DNA of 64,000 nt, taken from NCBI GenBank assembly GCA_031082005.1, contig JAVHLR010000001.1:191251-255250 (forward strand). Reading direction: 5' to 3'. This stretch comes from Patescibacteria group bacterium (GTDB taxonomy: Bacteria; Patescibacteriota; Patescibacteriia; 2-12-FULL-60-25). Position numbers and translations under genes: made by a program. The notes beneath the pieces were generated by a model. It searched no databases. It was not told the origin of the DNA and saw nothing but the letters and a program-made list of their open reading frames with translations. Shown piece by piece: positions 23,501 through 34,491 of this stretch. Each line of letters opens with the position of its first letter. Positions within the stretch are counted from its first letter, which is position 1.

Positions 23501-23529
23501 TTGACAATCCAGACTTTTCATGTTTATCT
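23501..23529 (+). promoter_or_regulatory. Sigma-70-like promoter
   Basis: TTGACA - 17 bp - TTATCT upstream of the 23574 gene. Confidence 0.55.
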
Positions 23530-23573
23530 ATCCCATCGCAATCGTGCGATCGCTCCTTCGAAAGGATGAAGAT

Positions 23574-25469
23574 ATGGACGAGAAAGAACTCCAGGCCCTC
23601 GCGGCCGTTGAGCCGGAAGTCGCTAGGAAGTTTGTCGAGTTCGAACGGAAGTGCCGCGAGTTCGAGGCGGCACACCCAGGCACCGCAACACTGTGTCCGA
23701 AGAGTACCGCTGATCCGCTCTTTGAGCTGTGGCGTCATCGTTGCTACGACGATCTTGGTTCATGGTTCATGGAGCTGATGTACAGTCGAGTCTGGTTGAA
23801 GATGCCGGAGGTAGAGGCCTTCGTACTCGCCTGCACGGTGGACCAAGGCTCACGCCACAATCACCGTGACTCGAAATACTTTCTCAGGGAGACGCTGTGG
23901 CACGTGATGTGCAATAATTCCTGGTTCGCCGGTGCATCAGACGAGCTGATGACTAAGGTCTGGGATGCTTGGGTCGCTGCCTGTAAGTCATCAAGCATGC
24001 TGATCTCCAACAACCCATGGAATCTGGCCCATCGCGAGATATGGCGGCTGCATGAATGGCCGACCGCACGTCTCCTTGACCATGCCGTCGATGCCGTCGA
24101 TTCCTTCATGCATGCTGCGGACCATGCCCAAGTACCGAAACCCAGGCTGCACGAGATGCGAAAGGCTGCAGACGGTGATTGGAGCGCGTGGCTCAAGGTG
24201 AAGAGCAACGGCAATCCGCCGCCTTTGATCCGTCAACGTCTGCAACCCCTCTTCCTGAAGCACGTCGAACGCTGGGCGCTGCAAGCTCGCGACGCCAGGG
24301 TGGCCGAACGCCGGCAGAAGAAAGCGGAAGCGCGACTGAAACGCGATGAAGAACAGCGTCAATTTCGGGAGCGCGAGTCTAAGGTTGCGGACGCATTGAA
24401 CGCGCTACGTGAAGTCTTGCGGCAGAGCGTCGAGAAACTGGCGGCCGAGCATGATAAACAGGCGCTCCGCGACATGCTCAAGCGAAGGCAAGAGATGGTC
24501 GATTTCGCACCTGGTTGCAGTGACGCTCTGCGCGAAGAAGTCAGGAGCTTCCCGAACGCCCAGTTGATTGACAAGATTGACAAGGCTTTGGCCATCATCG
24601 AGCAGCGTGCACGCGAACAGGAGATGCGGCTGCAGCAGTATCGTGCGCATATTGGACAGCGCGTCCGGCAGATCGTCACGGTCTTCAATGGACTGTTCGA
24701 CCTGGCAATCGACCCCGAGGCTGTGCTGAACGGTACGGTCACTGGCGAATATGCTTCGATCCACTCCGCTCCCAGAGGATCGGGCGTCGGGTTTAGGCTT
24801 CGGCAGTCACTTTGTCTGACGCAAGAACTTCACATGTTCGGAAAGACACGCACCTGGCTCGAACTTGAGGAAGGCGACATCGAGGACGAGATGCTGGATG
24901 CTTATCAGACCGCAAACCTCATCACCTGGCACGAGCTCTCGCATCTAGCCTCCGCATCCACGGTCAGAGCTTGTCTCGAGAAGATTGCTTTTCCTCCTGA
25001 CCTGACCAAGGAGCAGCAGGCGCACGCCCGCGAAGTCGTGCTCGACGCGTTAGCTTTCCGTCTGGGGAGCACGTTCTACGTACATCAGTCTCCGGGTAAG
25101 CCGCTCATCACGAGCGAGAGAGCGCGTCTTCACGTCCTTCGCACTGCCTTGGTCTGTATGGCCCGCCGCGTCATCCGCCATTTGCCCGACGCAGAGTTGG
25201 ATGCGAACCAGGAGGCTCTGTTGCTCCGGCTCCACGCCGAACTCAAGAGTCAGGATGCGGCCTTGGTGCAGACGAGGCAGGCTCTGCGTTACTTGGAAGC
25301 AGCGTTCGGACCTATCATCCAGCGAGGTGGGGTTATCCGCGACTACTATGCGGCTCTCTTCCGTCTGACGCTGAAGTCCGCGGACATCGCCAGCGTCACC
25401 TTCTGCGGCTCCCTCCAAGACAGGGAAGAAGATTCTGAGACCTTCACTCCCCAACACATCCTCCACTAA
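23574..25469 (+). CDS. Hypothetical large protein, coiled-coil, with HELSH (HExxH-type) motif
   Basis: SD GAAAGGATGA before ATG 23574; LITWHELSHLASAS in the C-terminal half. Confidence 0.75.
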   Translation: MDEKELQALAAVEPEVARKFVEFERKCREFEAAHPGTATLCPKSTADPLFELWRHRCYDDLGSWFMELMYSRVWLKMPEVEAFVLACTVDQGSRHNHRDSKYFLRETLWHVMCNNSWFAGASDELMTKVWDAWVAACKSSSMLISNNPWNLAHREIWRLHEWPTARLLDHAVDAVDSFMHAADHAQVPKPRLHEMRKAADGDWSAWLKVKSNGNPPPLIRQRLQPLFLKHVERWALQARDARVAERRQKKAEARLKRDEEQRQFRERESKVADALNALREVLRQSVEKLAAEHDKQALRDMLKRRQEMVDFAPGCSDALREEVRSFPNAQLIDKIDKALAIIEQRAREQEMRLQQYRAHIGQRVRQIVTVFNGLFDLAIDPEAVLNGTVTGEYASIHSAPRGSGVGFRLRQSLCLTQELHMFGKTRTWLELEEGDIEDEMLDAYQTANLITWHELSHLASASTVRACLEKIAFPPDLTKEQQAHAREVVLDALAFRLGSTFYVHQSPGKPLITSERARLHVLRTALVCMARRVIRHLPDAELDANQEALLLRLHAELKSQDAALVQTRQALRYLEAAFGPIIQRGGVIRDYYAALFRLTLKSADIASVTFCGSLQDREEDSETFTPQHILH

Positions 25470-25471
25470 AT

Positions 25472-25504
25472 AACCCGGCTCGCCACCTCTGGCGCAGCCG
25501 GGTT
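25472..25504 (+). terminator. GC-rich terminator-like hairpin
   Basis: AACCCGGCTCGCC ACCTCT GGCGCAGCCGGGTT. Confidence 0.75.
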
Positions 25505-25537
25505 TCACGTTTACCTATTATTTCTTTCTTCCCTTTA

Positions 25538-25631
25538 GAACAGGGGATAGGGGCTTTTTCGTCAGCGAGGACCTGTTCGAGGTAGATGAAAACGAGCCCC
25601 GCAGCGACGAAAAAGCCCTTACCCCCTGTTC
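25538..25631. repeat. Composite hairpin element copy 1: 26-nt inverted-repeat arms around a conserved ~42-nt core
   Basis: Left arm GAACAGGGGATAGGGGCTTTTTCGTC, right arm its reverse complement with 2 differences; core AGCGAGGACCTGTTCGAGGTAGATGAAAACGAGCCCCGCAGC. Confidence 0.85.
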
Positions 25632-25641
25632 GTTCCTACCA

Positions 25642-25670
25642 TTGACAAAAACCTTTAATTACGCTATGTT
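25642..25670 (+). promoter_or_regulatory. Sigma-70-like promoter
   Basis: TTGACA - 17 bp - TATGTT upstream of the protein kinase gene. Confidence 0.65.
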
Positions 25671-25718
25671 CCTACATTCCGGGAATGGGCCCGGACGATC
25701 TTTGAAAGGATAACTAAG

Positions 25719-27434
25719 ATGGCTAGCCGTAACAGTCTGCCGTGCGTCATCGAGAGCCGATTGCCCGACAAAGGCGGCCGTAAGCGCGTCCTGCGCTACG
25801 AGCTTCTTTCTGTCCTGGGGCAGGGCGGGATGGCCACGGTTTACCTGGCCAACGACCTAACTCCTCCGGACTGGTACCGCGAAGCCAACGGCGACAAGCC
25901 GCGGCGCGTGGTGCTGAAGTACCCGCATGAGGAGGTTTTGCAGATTTCGGTCGACGCGCTCGACCGCTTCGTCAGGGAGGCCAACCTCCTCAAGTCCGTG
26001 AACCACCCGAACGTGGTGCGGATTTGGAACATGGGTGTGGATCAGGACACTCACCCCTTCATCGTGATGGAGCTGGTTGAGGACGCCCAGAGTCTCGACG
26101 CTCTGAAAGTGAAGTATTGGGAGAATTTCCTGAACGACCAGGGCAAGTCGGAGAACGGCAAGATCGAGCGATCGCTTGTTCCTGTCTCTATGCTTGTTCC
26201 GTTGTTGCGCCAGGTGCTCGACGCGCTTGAGGCGCTGCACGCCAAGAACATCGTGCATCGCGACATCAAGCCCGAGAACATCCTGGTGACGGATCAGGAT
26301 GGCCGAGACGTGGTGAAGCTGACGGACCTGGGGATCTCCAAGAACCTTACTCCGCAGCCCGGGCCAAGTCTCACGAGCCAAGGCGTGATCGTCGGGACGC
26401 CGTATTACATGTCGCCTGAAGCCGCGATGGAATGCAAAATCCATCCGGTGACGCGCGAGACATGGTACGTCGGTCCGTACAGCGATTTTTGGTCTCTCGG
26501 TGCATCGGCTTTCGAGCTCGTCACGGGCTTCCTGCCTTTCGACGCGGACGCCAACGAGTTGCGCAAGCCGACCAACGGAGCGCGTTCGGAGATCATGGCC
26601 GAGCAGCTCATGGCGCGGCTCGTCCTGGCCAAGGTCGTCGACAGCCAGATCGGTCACCGCGACATCAAGGACTTCGTCCATGATCCGAATCCGCATATGG
26701 TCGAGTTCATAGACCTGTGCCTGATCAAGGATCCGTGGGATCGGCCTAAGGACGCGACAGCGTTGCGTAAGCTGCTCGACAAAGCCGAGGAGTGGGAACG
26801 TCGGCACAAACTGCCCTTCTCGTTGCCCGGCAAAAGCACCTCATGGCGCGAAGCCGATTCCCTGGCTCCGACACGCGAACTGGTTTCGAATCCGCCACCA
26901 CAGACTCCGGCAGTATCTTCGGAAGTGACCGGACGCAGTAGGTTGTCCAGGATTAAAGTCGCTTGGGTACCTGTAGCTATCCTGGCGTTCGGGACCCTCG
27001 TGCTGCTGGCCTGGCTGTTCGATCTGCATGGGCGGTTCTATGACTCACGACCTGCGCTTCAGGATTCAGCAGCCGCATCGGGTTCGTTCCTGTCATCTAC
27101 AGCTCCGCCAGTCGCTTCGACAGTTTCACCAGCCACCGCTACGGCTTCAGCCAAGCGCACGCCAGGATCTGGGCCGGAGCCAGGCTCTCGTGCCTATGGA
27201 ATCTACCGGAGTGGCGTGTCCGCTTACGCGGCTGGGAATTGCTCCCAGGCCAAACGCTTCATGAACGGGGTCTTGGCGGTCCATCCGTCGTTCCCTCCGG
27301 CCATGAAGGTTCTGGGCGAGTGCGCGTTGCGCGGCAAGCGCTTCGACGAAGCTCGGCAGTATCTTGAGCTGTACCAGTCGTTCGACGGCGTCGAGCCATT
27401 GTCGGCTGAAGCGCAGAAGTTCCTGGCCCGGTAG
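25719..27434 (+). CDS. Transmembrane Ser/Thr protein kinase with C-terminal TPR-like region
   Basis: LGQGGMATVYLA, NIVHRDIKPENILV, LTDLGIS, GTPYYMSPEA; TM VAILAFGTLVLLAWLF; C-terminal SAYAAGNCSQAKRFMNGVLAVHPSF. Confidence 0.93.
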   Translation: MASRNSLPCVIESRLPDKGGRKRVLRYELLSVLGQGGMATVYLANDLTPPDWYREANGDKPRRVVLKYPHEEVLQISVDALDRFVREANLLKSVNHPNVVRIWNMGVDQDTHPFIVMELVEDAQSLDALKVKYWENFLNDQGKSENGKIERSLVPVSMLVPLLRQVLDALEALHAKNIVHRDIKPENILVTDQDGRDVVKLTDLGISKNLTPQPGPSLTSQGVIVGTPYYMSPEAAMECKIHPVTRETWYVGPYSDFWSLGASAFELVTGFLPFDADANELRKPTNGARSEIMAEQLMARLVLAKVVDSQIGHRDIKDFVHDPNPHMVEFIDLCLIKDPWDRPKDATALRKLLDKAEEWERRHKLPFSLPGKSTSWREADSLAPTRELVSNPPPQTPAVSSEVTGRSRLSRIKVAWVPVAILAFGTLVLLAWLFDLHGRFYDSRPALQDSAAASGSFLSSTAPPVASTVSPATATASAKRTPGSGPEPGSRAYGIYRSGVSAYAAGNCSQAKRFMNGVLAVHPSFPPAMKVLGECALRGKRFDEARQYLELYQSFDGVEPLSAEAQKFLAR

Positions 27435-29673: not shown

Positions 29674-29824
29674 CCTCCCACGCCATCTTTTGTTCTCAAA
29701 GAATCGTCATTGCGAGGAGCGTGAAAGAAACCGTAGGGCGACACGGCAATCTTACATTGTGGCAAGATTACTTCGCTGTGCTCGCAACGACGGATCAGCC
29801 GATTCGTTATCTTAAAAAAGTTTA

Positions 29825-29848
29825 ACCCCGGTGTGGTCACACCGGGGT
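29825..29848 (-). terminator. Terminator hairpin of the 29855-32829 cluster
   Basis: ACCCCGGTGTGGTCACACCGGGGT, followed on the minus strand by TAAACTTTTTT. Confidence 0.75.
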
Positions 29849-29854
29849 CTTGAG

Positions 29855-30778
29855 TCAGTTGGCGTATTCGCGCCGGAACGCCTCGAAGACGTTCATGGCG
29901 CGAGCCAACAAGTTTCCTTTCAGGCACAGCTCGTCGCACAACATCATGTTGCGGTAACCGATGTCGTAGAGCCAGGCTAGTTCGGAGAAGTCCACGCATT
30001 CCGGCACAGGGCCATTGATGCAGGAAAGGAGAAGACGGGAAGCGACGCAGGCTTGCGGATCTTTTTCGAGCACAAGCTTGGTCGCTTTGAGGACGTCGTG
30101 CGGTCGATCGACCTCCACGTACAGGTCGCCGCGTGCCGCGACAAGCGTTATGCCGTCGCTTTTCTCGAAATCCTTGGCGACATACTCGAGCCCGCGACGC
30201 GATTCGATCTTGAGCATGATCTGCGCGTCAGTGCCGATCAGTTCACGAAAAAGGTCGACATCGCGTTGCTCCTCGACGTACGAGAGGAACCAGCGTTTGA
30301 TGCCCGCTTTCTTCACTCGTTCGATCTTGGCCAGCTCCTGTGCGGTGAAGATGGGTCCTAGTACTTCGAGTGCCGGATCGCGTACGTGCAGCGATTCTCC
30401 TTCACGTACTTTGTAGTGTGGACCTCCGACGAAGACTAGCCTTAGCCCATCCTCCTCCAGGTGATGCAGCTGCGCGCCGTCTGCCCCGGCCTTGAACAGC
30501 ACATCGCTGGGCGTCGGAACCCTGATCGGATGGTTGAGCCGGATGTCCAAATGGTCCTCGTTCGGTAGCACTTCGGCGATCCGTAGTTGTCTGCCTTTGA
30601 CGTCGAACCAAAGGGGAACGTCAGCTTGCGCCGACGCGATGGCTAGTTCCTGCTCCAACTCGGTCTGCGACATCATCGCGCTGTTCAGGCGGATGCCCGC
30701 GATGCGCTCGTCATCAGCGAACTCGAGGAAGTGGGGGAAGCTGGGCCAGAGAGTCACGAAGAGTTTGAGGTCTGCCAT
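29855..30778 (-). CDS. Pyruvate kinase-like TIM-barrel domain protein
   Basis: IMLKIESRRGLEYVAKDFEKSDGITLVAARGDLYVEV matches the pyruvate kinase KIE...DGIMVARGDLGVE region. ORF track start (31171) trimmed to ATG 30778, just after the VWA stop. Confidence 0.78.
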   Translation of the reverse strand: MADLKLFVTLWPSFPHFLEFADDERIAGIRLNSAMMSQTELEQELAIASAQADVPLWFDVKGRQLRIAEVLPNEDHLDIRLNHPIRVPTPSDVLFKAGADGAQLHHLEEDGLRLVFVGGPHYKVREGESLHVRDPALEVLGPIFTAQELAKIERVKKAGIKRWFLSYVEEQRDVDLFRELIGTDAQIMLKIESRRGLEYVAKDFEKSDGITLVAARGDLYVEVDRPHDVLKATKLVLEKDPQACVASRLLLSCINGPVPECVDFSELAWLYDIGYRNMMLCDELCLKGNLLARAMNVFEAFRREYAN

Positions 30779-30780
30779 GG

Positions 30781-31782
30781 CTAGTCGTCCAAGAGCGACT
30801 TGGTCTTCTTGCCTCTGGCAGCCCCGAGCAACCTGGACTTGCCGCGAGCCGAGGTGTCGTCCTTGGGCGGAGGGCTCGAAGAAGCTGCAACGACGTGGAT
30901 AGTCGAAAGAGCTTTCGAGACGATGGCCACCTGCTCCGACGTCTGCCGTCCCTTGATCTCGTCCCGGAAGTAGGGGACTCTGTCGGTCTCGAGAGCCAGA
31001 AGGCCGAACGTCACGTCCACGACGCGTTCCGGGACATCTAGGTCGGAGATGCGTTCTTCTCCGATGAGCTTCGCCCAGTCGCTGCGTATCCGTCTGTCGG
31101 TCGTGCTCATCCTGTCGCCGTGCCCTTCCTCGTAGGTCTTGCGGATCAGGTAGACGGAATACTTGGCGCACAGTTCGGCGAAGACGGCTCTGGTCGTGAT
31201 GCTCTCCTGCAAATTCACGTGGCAGTAGCGCTTGGCCAGGTCGGGCTCGATCCTGTCATACGGAGATTCGTCACCGATGAAGATCATGACCGGCTTGCGG
31301 ATCGCCTTGGGGAAGGCGACGTTACGTGCGAAGTACAGGGCGGCCAACTCATACGTCTCGTATGTCTGACCGCCGCCGCCACCTTCGATGACGAGCTCCT
31401 GGAGCCGCGTCTTGATGTCAGTCCCCTTGGTGAAAGGGCGTACTTGCAACGGATACGTCTCGTTGTTCCTTGCATCGCCAATAGCCGCGAAGCTGATCTC
31501 CATGTCCTTGCCCAAGTATTCCTGACCCTCGAGTTCGAGGTACGGGGCTTTGGAGAAGATGACTCCTGGCCATTTGCCCATCGACCCTGTCTGATCGCAG
31601 ATGAAGATGAGCGGCCAAGAGCACTGTGTGGAGATGGTCTTCGGCACGAGATCCTGGCATGTCCTGCCGCTCCCTCGCGCTTCTTCGTAGCTCCTCCCTG
31701 CGTGCGCGACGTATTGCTGACGTGCTTGCGCGAAATCATGCCCTTGCCAACAACCCGGTTCGTAATCAGCGCCTTCTGCCAT
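30781..31782 (-). CDS. VWA domain-containing protein
   Basis: FICDQTGSMGKWPG (MIDAS-like DxTGS), GGGGGQTYETYELAALYFA, VMIFIGDE. Confidence 0.82.
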   Translation of the reverse strand: MAEGADYEPGCWQGHDFAQARQQYVAHAGRSYEEARGSGRTCQDLVPKTISTQCSWPLIFICDQTGSMGKWPGVIFSKAPYLELEGQEYLGKDMEISFAAIGDARNNETYPLQVRPFTKGTDIKTRLQELVIEGGGGGQTYETYELAALYFARNVAFPKAIRKPVMIFIGDESPYDRIEPDLAKRYCHVNLQESITTRAVFAELCAKYSVYLIRKTYEEGHGDRMSTTDRRIRSDWAKLIGEERISDLDVPERVVDVTFGLLALETDRVPYFRDEIKGRQTSEQVAIVSKALSTIHVVAASSSPPPKDDTSARGKSRLLGAARGKKTKSLLDD

Positions 31783-31794
31783 GTCGTGCTCCTT

Positions 31795-32829
31795 TCATTC
31801 TCCTGCGATCTTCTTCATGTCCGTATGGATACGTCCGAACGACTGCTGTCTGACTTTGCGGAATGACTCCGTCAGGTCTTCCTGTGACCAGTTCGGCCGT
31901 CCCAACAGATCCCTGACGACCAACCGTTTGATGAACTTGCAGAGCGGCCCGGGTGTATCGGACGGGACGCTCAAACGTGCGACAGAGTCGTACGTTCCGC
32001 TCAAGGCATAGACCAGAGTCTTGCCCAGGCTGAACAGGTCGGATTCCGGGAGCAGCGGTTTTTCCTCCATCTGCTCCGGAGGCGCGAACTGTTCGGTGTA
32101 TCCCTTGGGTTTCGTGCTGGCTGTCGGTCTTATGCAGGTCAGTCCGAAGTCCACGAGCGAGATGCGGTGTTTCTTCGCATCCACGATGATGTTCTGCGGC
32201 TTGATGTCGCCGTGGATCACTCCCTCAAAGTGCAGGAACTGCAGCGTGTTGAGGACGCGATCCGCGATCCAGGCTACGTTTTCCGCGTCGAGCGCACCGA
32301 CTTTCTGCACGAGTTGCTCGAGCGTCGGCCCTGGCACATAGCTCATGACGAGCACGAGGCTGCCGTCGTCCATCCGCAACAGATCTTTCATGTGCGGCAG
32401 GCAATAGTGCCCCAGGTTCCAGATCGCCTTGGCTTCTTCGAGCAGAATGGCCTCATGCGCGGGGCTGTGCAGGAATCCCTGCTTCAGGCACACCGGTTCT
32501 TTCGCCACCCTATGTTCGGCCTTGTACGTCACGCCGAATCCGCCTTCCGCGATTTTGGATACGATGCGGTAGTTGCCGATCGTCTTGTCAGGCTTGTGGA
32601 CCTGCTGATGCTCCCGTCTTTTCGTCGGGTCAGACAGGACGGCGTAGGCATACGAAACGAGTTCGAGTTTTTCCTCATCGCCTTCCACACCGTCCGGGTA
32701 GTACTTGGCGGTCAACGCATTGCACGCGGCCGCCAGGACCTCTGATCCGGCATGCGGATGGACCTGGAGTATTTGATAGAGATCCTCCAGGGTCAGGTTG
32801 TGTCGCTGCGATCCCTGTGTTCCGCCCAT
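31795..32829 (-). CDS. J-domain-like/protein kinase fusion
   Basis: N-terminal LYQILQVHPHAG...AKYYPDGVEGDEEKLELVSYAYAVLSDPTKRREHQ (YPD for HPD); kinase IAEGGFGVTYKAEH, GVIHGDIKPQNIIV, LVDFGL. Confidence 0.9.
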   Translation of the reverse strand: MGGTQGSQRHNLTLEDLYQILQVHPHAGSEVLAAACNALTAKYYPDGVEGDEEKLELVSYAYAVLSDPTKRREHQQVHKPDKTIGNYRIVSKIAEGGFGVTYKAEHRVAKEPVCLKQGFLHSPAHEAILLEEAKAIWNLGHYCLPHMKDLLRMDDGSLVLVMSYVPGPTLEQLVQKVGALDAENVAWIADRVLNTLQFLHFEGVIHGDIKPQNIIVDAKKHRISLVDFGLTCIRPTASTKPKGYTEQFAPPEQMEEKPLLPESDLFSLGKTLVYALSGTYDSVARLSVPSDTPGPLCKFIKRLVVRDLLGRPNWSQEDLTESFRKVRQQSFGRIHTDMKKIAGE

Positions 32830-32979
32830 GTCGGCCTCTCCTTGTTGTCAACGAACAAGGTTTACTTACGTCATTGCTGCGTTTAAGTCAATGATTGAGT
32901 CCGACGGTCCCGACTTGACTGAATCGCCGATTTTTGTTAAGAAAACACGTTGTTCTTTCCATCTAAGGGAGGTAGATCC

Positions 32980-34491
32980 ATGACCCAAAACGTTGATCCT
33001 CGGTCACGGCGCTTCAGCCGTTACCACTGTTCAAGCAATACGCCGCCGGCGCTGGAAGCCATCCTGCGCTCGCTAGGCAAACTTAGCCGATCCAGAGGCG
33101 GCATCGCCAACAGGCAAGCGGTACGCTCCCTCGCGCAGAGGGCGGATCCTCACTACCACGACAAAGGGAAGTCGGACGACCTGTGTCGCTTCCTCATCAA
33201 CACCAGCGTCTTGCTGGAGACTACTGCAGGATCGCGGCTGTACTATGACGAAACGCGTGCGGCGCACGTTTTCGCATGTTGTCAGGAAGGTCGCGAGCCT
33301 GATCAGGCGGCGGATGCGGAAGAACGTCTGCGCGAAATCATGTGCGCAAACTCCGCGCCGGACGAGTCAGTGTCCGGACCCGCGACGGGCCGATCAGTGA
33401 GTGCGGCGCCGCCGACGCAATCTACCGTCGATGTTCAGCGATCGGAGACGGACGCGCCGCACGCTCTGCATGTCATCTTCCTCACGCCGATCGAGTACGA
33501 TTTGTGGGTGTGTATCCAGAGCATGGCGACTGATGATTCCGGCAGATACACGGTGCAGATCCCGTCTGCCGTGGACAGGCTGTATCACGAATGGGCATCT
33601 TCGCAGCTGAAGTGCACTCCCGACGAGTACGCTGCGGGACTCGCTATCTACATCTCCAAGGGTCTGCTGAAACGGTTGGACGGATCTGAAGAATATGTCT
33701 TCATGCAAGATCCGACCACCATCCACGCAGTTGAGGTTCCGGAACGGCCGGTGAAGCAAGTCAGTCGGCAAGACTTGGACGCTGTCTCCGCTTTGGAGCA
33801 CGAATTCCGGTTACGGCAGGACGTTGCTTTGGGCCAGAGCTTGGCTGACGCGCTCGACGGCATAGTCCCGCCAGACAAGATGCAGAGTGCCTACACTAAG
33901 TTCGTGGGTGGTCCGAACACCATCACGCACAAGTACAGCTACTGGGGCATCATCTGGCGCCAACCTACGGAGGGGTCGCATGAGACCTACGTCTGCCTGC
34001 CCGGCTTCGAGCGGTTCACGCTGGAGCTGAAGGAACCGATCCAGGATACGGCACAAGCCGATCCGTTGCAGTCATCCACCATGCCAAGCCCTGCTCCGGA
34101 TCCCGATGATGATTTCGTGGGTCCGCCCTCCGAGCGACGCGTGATCATCACCCCACCGCCAGCCGGTTCTTTCCCTGCGCTCGAAGCTTCGTCGCCGGCC
34201 GACGCTTCTGCTGCGGAAGACGAACAAAAACGTCGCCGCATCGAGGCCATGGAAGACGACGAGCTGCAGCGCAAGCTCGAAGAGTGGCGCCGCATGCTCG
34301 AGACTCTCCCTCATTCCATTCTTCTTGCCGAGGACGAACTCCGTAACAGGGCACGGGCGCGCAAACGCAACCAGCTCGCCGCCCGACTCGAAACGTTGCG
34401 CGCCGAGCAGCAGCGTCTCGAGAACGAGGCGCGAGACAAAGCGGCTGAAGCAGAGCGTCTAGCTGCGGATCTGGCCGCGCTCGACAGATAG
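32980..34491 (+). CDS. Hypothetical orphan protein with C-terminal coiled coil
   Basis: GGGAGG SD before ATG 32980; divergent from the kinase/VWA cluster; charged heptad-like C-terminus. Confidence 0.78.
   Translation: MTQNVDPRSRRFSRYHCSSNTPPALEAILRSLGKLSRSRGGIANRQAVRSLAQRADPHYHDKGKSDDLCRFLINTSVLLETTAGSRLYYDETRAAHVFACCQEGREPDQAADAEERLREIMCANSAPDESVSGPATGRSVSAAPPTQSTVDVQRSETDAPHALHVIFLTPIEYDLWVCIQSMATDDSGRYTVQIPSAVDRLYHEWASSQLKCTPDEYAAGLAIYISKGLLKRLDGSEEYVFMQDPTTIHAVEVPERPVKQVSRQDLDAVSALEHEFRLRQDVALGQSLADALDGIVPPDKMQSAYTKFVGGPNTITHKYSYWGIIWRQPTEGSHETYVCLPGFERFTLELKEPIQDTAQADPLQSSTMPSPAPDPDDDFVGPPSERRVIITPPPAGSFPALEASSPADASAAEDEQKRRRIEAMEDDELQRKLEEWRRMLETLPHSILLAEDELRNRARARKRNQLAARLETLRAEQQRLENEARDKAAEAERLAADLAALDR

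Follow-up and report, generated by a model that had tools for sequence, protein, structure and literature searches.

What a protein kinase, a VWA protein and a stand-alone relative of pyruvate kinase (PK) could do together in a single operon is the question raised by a 64-kb stretch of DNA (hereafter the window) from a Patescibacteria group bacterium. A sequence-only reading had placed this locus close to the Ter-type stress systems, with a metabolic barrel in the position of the phosphatase, and had considered it a candidate signalling or conflict system. The kinase and barrel genes are called here JK (J-domain/kinase) and PKL (pyruvate-kinase-like barrel), and the window genome (1.31 Mb, 7 contigs) is called G000. 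The features of the locus are the following:

31795-32829, minus strand: JK, a J-domain-like N-terminus fused to a Ser/Thr protein kinase (344 aa; PF00226, PF00069)
30781-31782, minus strand: VWA protein with a DxTGS MIDAS motif (333 aa; DQTGSM and AF2/Foldseek fold)
30779-30780, minus strand: VWA/PKL junction of 2 nt, TAG CC ATG (from the sequence)
29855-30778, minus strand: PKL, a stand-alone barrel with a reduced B domain and no C domain (307 aa; PF00224)
29824-29849, minus strand: intrinsic terminator after PKL (11-bp stem GACCCCGGTGTGACCACACCGGGGTT, then the T run AAACTTTTTT)

The initial description of three tightly packed minus-strand genes closed by one terminator is borne out by the coordinates. 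Transcription proceeds from JK through VWA and PKL to the terminator (29849-29824), with 12 nt, containing AAGGAG, between the JK stop and the VWA start, and with the PKL ATG only 2 nt past the VWA TAG, a junction which suggests that translation of VWA and PKL may be coupled. The terminator is the clearest among five terminator-like sites, where 3.2 are expected by chance. The three proteins score 536 (JK), 381 (VWA) and 485 bits (PKL) against their family profiles, the window copies being among the profile seeds, and these scores, together with the same gene order in independent genomes, indicate that the trio is not a chance assembly. Two further genes of the window encode proteins with no Pfam match: a divergent 500-aa gene with a coiled-coil-like C-terminus (32950-34491) lies about 120-160 nt from the JK start, and a 649-aa protein with a HELSH (HExxH-like) motif adjoins a Ser/Thr kinase with a TPR tail, the two genes together spanning 23520-27434.

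JK exceeds the Pfam cut-offs both for DnaJ (PF00226, E 4.2e-10) and for Pkinase (PF00069, E 3.3e-31), in agreement with the predicted fusion of a J-domain-like region to a kinase; the J motif itself is not intact, being YPD instead of HPD, which makes stimulation of DnaK doubtful for the window copy. HPD is intact in many of the phage copies of JK described below. The kinase motifs HGDIKPQN and DFG are kept in JK, and the catalytic motifs are likewise intact in the kinases adjoining PKL elsewhere, except for the divergent copies of two other Patescibacteria-phylum genomes (G041 and G261). The product of the second gene has no match to any Pfam or NCBIfam model, and its identification as a VWA protein relies on the MIDAS motif, DQTGSM in the window copy and DxTGS in 86 of 90 homologues, and on its predicted structure (AlphaFold, pLDDT 89), for which Foldseek ranks VWA/integrin I-domain folds highest among PDB entries.

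The third gene is the most unexpected member of the set. PKL matches PF00224 over the cut-off (E 8e-11), and its AlphaFold model, a confident pyruvate-kinase barrel (pLDDT 95.5, pTM 0.92), aligns with a PDB structure over 287 residues (Z 27.3, rmsd 3.1, 20% identity), all listed best matches being pyruvate kinases. As in pyruvate kinase (PF00224; TIGR01064), an A-domain barrel, a small B domain and conserved PEP/metal-site residues are present; in contrast to that enzyme, the B domain is reduced and the C-terminal regulatory domain is absent from the 307 aa, so that the structural alignment spans the A and B domains only and stops where the A domain ends. That PKL would simply be the housekeeping enzyme in truncated form, as the common fold might suggest, is nonetheless close to impossible: G000 has a separate pyruvate kinase, a 514-aa frame at C3:1004493 (404 bits), PKL members elsewhere score 383-484 bits against a profile from four family members while housekeeping pyruvate kinases reach 64 at most, and the NCBIfam equivalog score of PKL is 40.9 against a cut-off of 306.4 bits, far below all NCBIfam pyruvate-kinase cut-offs. 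The truncated-enzyme candidate was rejected on these grounds, and the barrel is, as had been supposed, a repurposed pyruvate-kinase fold.

Whether this barrel keeps the PK metal and phosphate ligands, a question that arose with the sequence itself, was addressed by comparing 68 PKL sequences, down to about 35% identity, with rabbit PK, whose numbering is used here. The equivalents of R73, N75, D113, K115, R120, K270, E272, R294 and D296 are invariant in all 68, the phosphate and metal ligands thus being kept, and that of T328 is Ser throughout. Among the invariant residues, K190, E192 and D218 of PKL correspond to K270, the catalytic Lys of PK, and to E272 and D296, its ligands for the divalent metal. 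At the positions of the PK K+ ligands S77 and T114 and of K207, which together with H78 belongs to the ADP site, PKL has A/V, V/L and Ser, respectively; the H78 position is also occupied by another residue. This pattern argues for a retained PEP/Mg2+ site that would lack the usual nucleotide and K+ sites, and since the ordinary ADP and K+ sites are most likely lost, PKL probably makes no ATP from PEP.

PKL also differs from pyruvate kinase in that it nearly always adjoins a VWA gene. Among 286 genomes of the Patescibacteria phylum, the VWA protein was found only in G000, G041, G103 and G261, clear PKL matches were confined to the same four, each time with the two genes side by side; G365, which came from a second survey, also has VWA next to PKL, and no JK was found adjoining them. 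A scan of GTDB contigs gave 150 encoded PKL relatives. In the best 80 of these, VWA lies directly upstream of PKL at 74 loci, four of the six exceptions starting about 200 bases or less from the end of a contig, and JK lies upstream at 23; in a second scan, VWA was directly upstream of PKL in 14 of 14 viral contigs. The co-conservation on which the initial proposal depended is hence observed, most widely for the VWA-PKL pair. In a draw of 150 genomes around a Chloroflexi carrier, PKL was found in that carrier only, a result that does not amount to a frequency, as the kinship within the draw is unreported. No VWA-PKL or VWA-kinase domain fusion was found in the loci. Some archaeal loci show variations: an extra gene of about 300 aa lies between VWA and PKL in some NAD operons (L150, 7072-7962; L107, 6820-7719), and in L127 a J-kinase directly precedes PKL with no VWA between them, on a contig that also has a full NAD-operon copy (L150). 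In G103, the trio is followed downstream by a glutamine amidotransferase gene and a pair of GCS2-like genes of the glutamate-cysteine ligase family (L039, 10629-14391).

A tree built from 94 barrels places the window PKL within a clade of 30 rows (SH-aLRT 100) that groups Patescibacteria, DPANN archaea, a Melainabacterium and nearly all phage copies. With the caution required by a quick tree with long branches and by metagenome bins, we take this mixed clade to reflect probable transfer between these organisms and phages.

The new element of this analysis lies in the genes around the pair. Of the best 80 of the 150 PKL loci, 49 encode a NadM-like NMNAT upstream and 41 a glutamine-dependent NadE, which is mostly just downstream, the order NadM-VWA-PKL-NadE being found in Chloroflexi, Myxococcota, Acidobacteriota and Planctomycetota (NadM, NadE, NADK and PncA were named in these loci from sequence and seed-built profiles, not Pfam). 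The archaeon GW2011_AR15 has the operon PncB-PncA-NadE-NUDIX-NadM-kinase-VWA-PKL-NADK, where PncB is a Pfam NaPRTase match; every step from nicotinamide to NADP is thereby present, with VWA, PKL and the kinase as additions. In G261, the trio sits among genes for NrtR, a NadD-like protein, an isochorismatase-family (nicotinamidase-like) protein, NAD kinase, ADP-ribosylglycohydrolase and NaPRTase. The kinase-VWA-PKL cassette in turn travels largely alone in Patescibacteria, DPANN archaea and huge phages. The window copy is such a stand-alone cassette, with no NAD gene nearby, which is why the NAD context was invisible from the window sequence. G000 and G103 have the trio but neither PncB nor NadC and no convincing NadE; the module is therefore not strictly tied to NAD synthesis there, and any account of it has to hold for cells without NAD synthesis as well.

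Phages add a second context. PKL is encoded, with 47% identity, by the 485-kb uncultured phage LR745208, and the trio is present on about 12 distinct viral contigs once near-duplicates are removed, the others being predicted viruses from IMG/VR; the order JK-VWA-PKL holds in all of them, although the VWA frame of one (L157) looks broken. The same huge phages carry NAD+ salvage genes (NadV, NadM, NadR), from which the trio differs in not being a synthesis enzyme set. A NaPRTase/NadV-family gene or NadE is found in 6 of 10 trio-bearing phage records, a co-carriage that lends weak support to the NAD connection, because NadV by itself is frequent among jumbo phages (33%; PMC9503650). Considering that the trio lies inside NAD-making operons and on huge phages, it probably controls or modifies NAD supply.

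How it would do so can be approached through the alternatives. The position of PKL between NadM and NadE could mean that it replaces a missing step of NAD synthesis; however, the AR15 operon already has PncB, PncA, NadM, NadE and NADK, and G000 has PKL without those genes. A complete set of salvage enzymes in one case, and a trio without recognisable NAD synthesis genes in the other, make a pathway-step role very unlikely, and the missing-step candidate, contradicted by the complete AR15 operon, was set aside. A tentative and rather unlikely reading, applying to the phage/Patescibacteria clade, is that of a conflict role, in which a phage or parasite cassette would protect NAD+ pools or reverse ADP-ribosylation, in defence or counter-defence. 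The trio-bearing viral contigs with their constant gene order, an ADP-ribosylglycohydrolase gene within 8 kb of the trio in about five of these roughly 12 contigs, the place of the window copy in a clade that mixes Patescibacteria, DPANN, Melainabacteria and phages, and its patchy occurrence in Patescibacteria all speak for it. Against it, about half of the genomic loci (best 80 of 150) belong to ordinary NAD operons, with free-living bacteria accounting for most of these, and no effector or nuclease is conserved beside the trio; PADLOC has no match for VWA or PKL and gives generic matches only for the kinase, with no specific known defence model.

The Ter-type system that was initially brought up, in which the barrel would have taken the place of the phosphatase, fares far worse. 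Like a TerY-type triad, the trio has a vWA protein beside a Ser/Thr kinase, and in one Parcubacteria genome a PP2C-type phosphatase gene lies next to the J-kinase, in divergent orientation to VWA-PKL (L080, 4852-5595). That is the only locus where this is so, and the window indeed has no PP2C gene, as had been noted, the sole genomic PF13672 match (C3:155110) lying about 35 kb outside it. In addition, TerD is lacking, with no PF02342 match in G000 and none in 13 of the 14 carrier genomes or records tested, and what the loci have in common is a setting of NAD(P) synthesis and salvage, not of Ter genes. A Ter system is thus disfavoured by the absence of TerD, and we regard this reading as extremely improbable.

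Closer in theme are the ADP-ribosylglycohydrolase (ARG)-centred NrtR-Nudix/vWA systems, whose core is an ADP-ribosylglycohydrolase and a phosphatase (Iyer et al., 2022, section 3.8; PMC9503650). Some trio loci (G261 and several phages) also encode a vWA protein, an NrtR-like Nudix protein and an ADP-ribosylglycohydrolase; the core here is instead VWA and the PK-like barrel, and a profile from three homologues found no ADP-ribosylglycohydrolase in the 64-kb window. These vWA genes in NrtR/ADP-ribosylglycohydrolase neighbourhoods are the nearest published theme, without this barrel, and the paper makes no mention of pyruvate kinase, adenylosuccinate or J-domain (PMC9503650). vWA/kinase modules near NAD and ADP-ribose genes are thus a known theme, while the core VWA-PKL pair is apparently undescribed, no description of the module having been found in the open-access literature.

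The same holds for a related operon, also without a description as a system in the open-access literature, that has a homologous VWA and a kinase-like gene in the same order as the trio. It differs by a divergent adenylosuccinate-synthetase-like (PurA-like) gene in the place of the barrel and by degenerate kinase motifs. It occurs as pseudokinase-VWA-PurA-like-NUDIX on actinobacterial and alphaproteobacterial plasmids, those of Rhodococcus, Tsukamurella, Agrobacterium and Acetobacter (L065, L067-L071), as kinase-VWA-PurA-like, without NUDIX, in Bxz1-type mycobacteriophages, and as VWA-PurA-like in a Vibrio phage; PurA-like and PKL partners are found together in G103, G041, G261 and L165. The aspartate loop of the PurA-like protein appears changed in these operons (e.g., WQQDFR for TTGRSRR). 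G000 itself has one operon of this kind, 200 kb away from the trio (L042; G000:C3:418000-437000). It encodes an NrtR-like NUDIX protein, a kinase-like protein, VWA, a PurA-like protein and a 453-aa protein of unknown nature; a 348-aa protein that, judged by eye, may be another VWA; and a kinase whose C-terminal part resembles a nucleotidyltransferase.

That the slot after VWA can be taken by a different metabolic-enzyme fold is also what one would expect if PKL were a pseudo-enzyme, i.e., a non-catalytic sensor of PEP or another phospho-metabolite reporting the energy state to VWA and the kinase. The ADP-site and K+ ligands that are not conserved and the missing C domain agree with such a sensor, but the invariance of the catalytic Lys and of both metal ligands, down to the most distant of the 68 sequences, does not, and a purely sensory role appears unlikely.

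We therefore replace the Ter-like conflict system with a proposed NAD(P)-linked VWA/PK-barrel module that would, in this lineage, be kinase-regulated. The gene order, co-conservation, fold, conserved residues, NAD-operon context and phage carriage observed here are best explained as a whole, with what we consider an even chance of being right, by a VWA-PKL pair acting in NAD(P) homeostasis with the kinase as a regulatory layer. The core would be the two-gene unit, tied to NAD(P) metabolism. Its barrel most likely works as a Mg2+-dependent enzyme, with PEP or another small phospho/keto acid of that type as ligand. From the gene order, the MIDAS of VWA may hold on to PKL, to a client (possibly an NAD enzyme) or to both, while the kinase, fused to a J-like region in Patescibacteria, DPANN and phages, would phosphorylate a member of the complex or a target. 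In this way the module would control, upwards or downwards, either how much NAD(P) is available or a product derived from NAD. Free-living hosts would have it as one section of the operon; NAD-dependent parasites or symbionts, and phages, would carry it as a portable cassette. A bolder and more speculative version, which we hold to be possible but below an even chance, is that of a new NAD(P)-handling complex, found across bacteria, archaea and huge phages, in which a PK-derived enzyme, gated by VWA and the kinase, uses a PEP-type substrate either to act on a pyridine nucleotide or as a response to one.

The synthesis of NAD generally counts as a solved pathway. The VWA-PKL pair in NAD operons of bacteria and archaea, and the cassettes of phages, Patescibacteria and DPANN, would suggest that NAD control or chemistry has a layer so far overlooked. 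Such a module would tie NAD pools to glycolytic metabolites and to protein phosphorylation in organisms where phages and their hosts fight over NAD.
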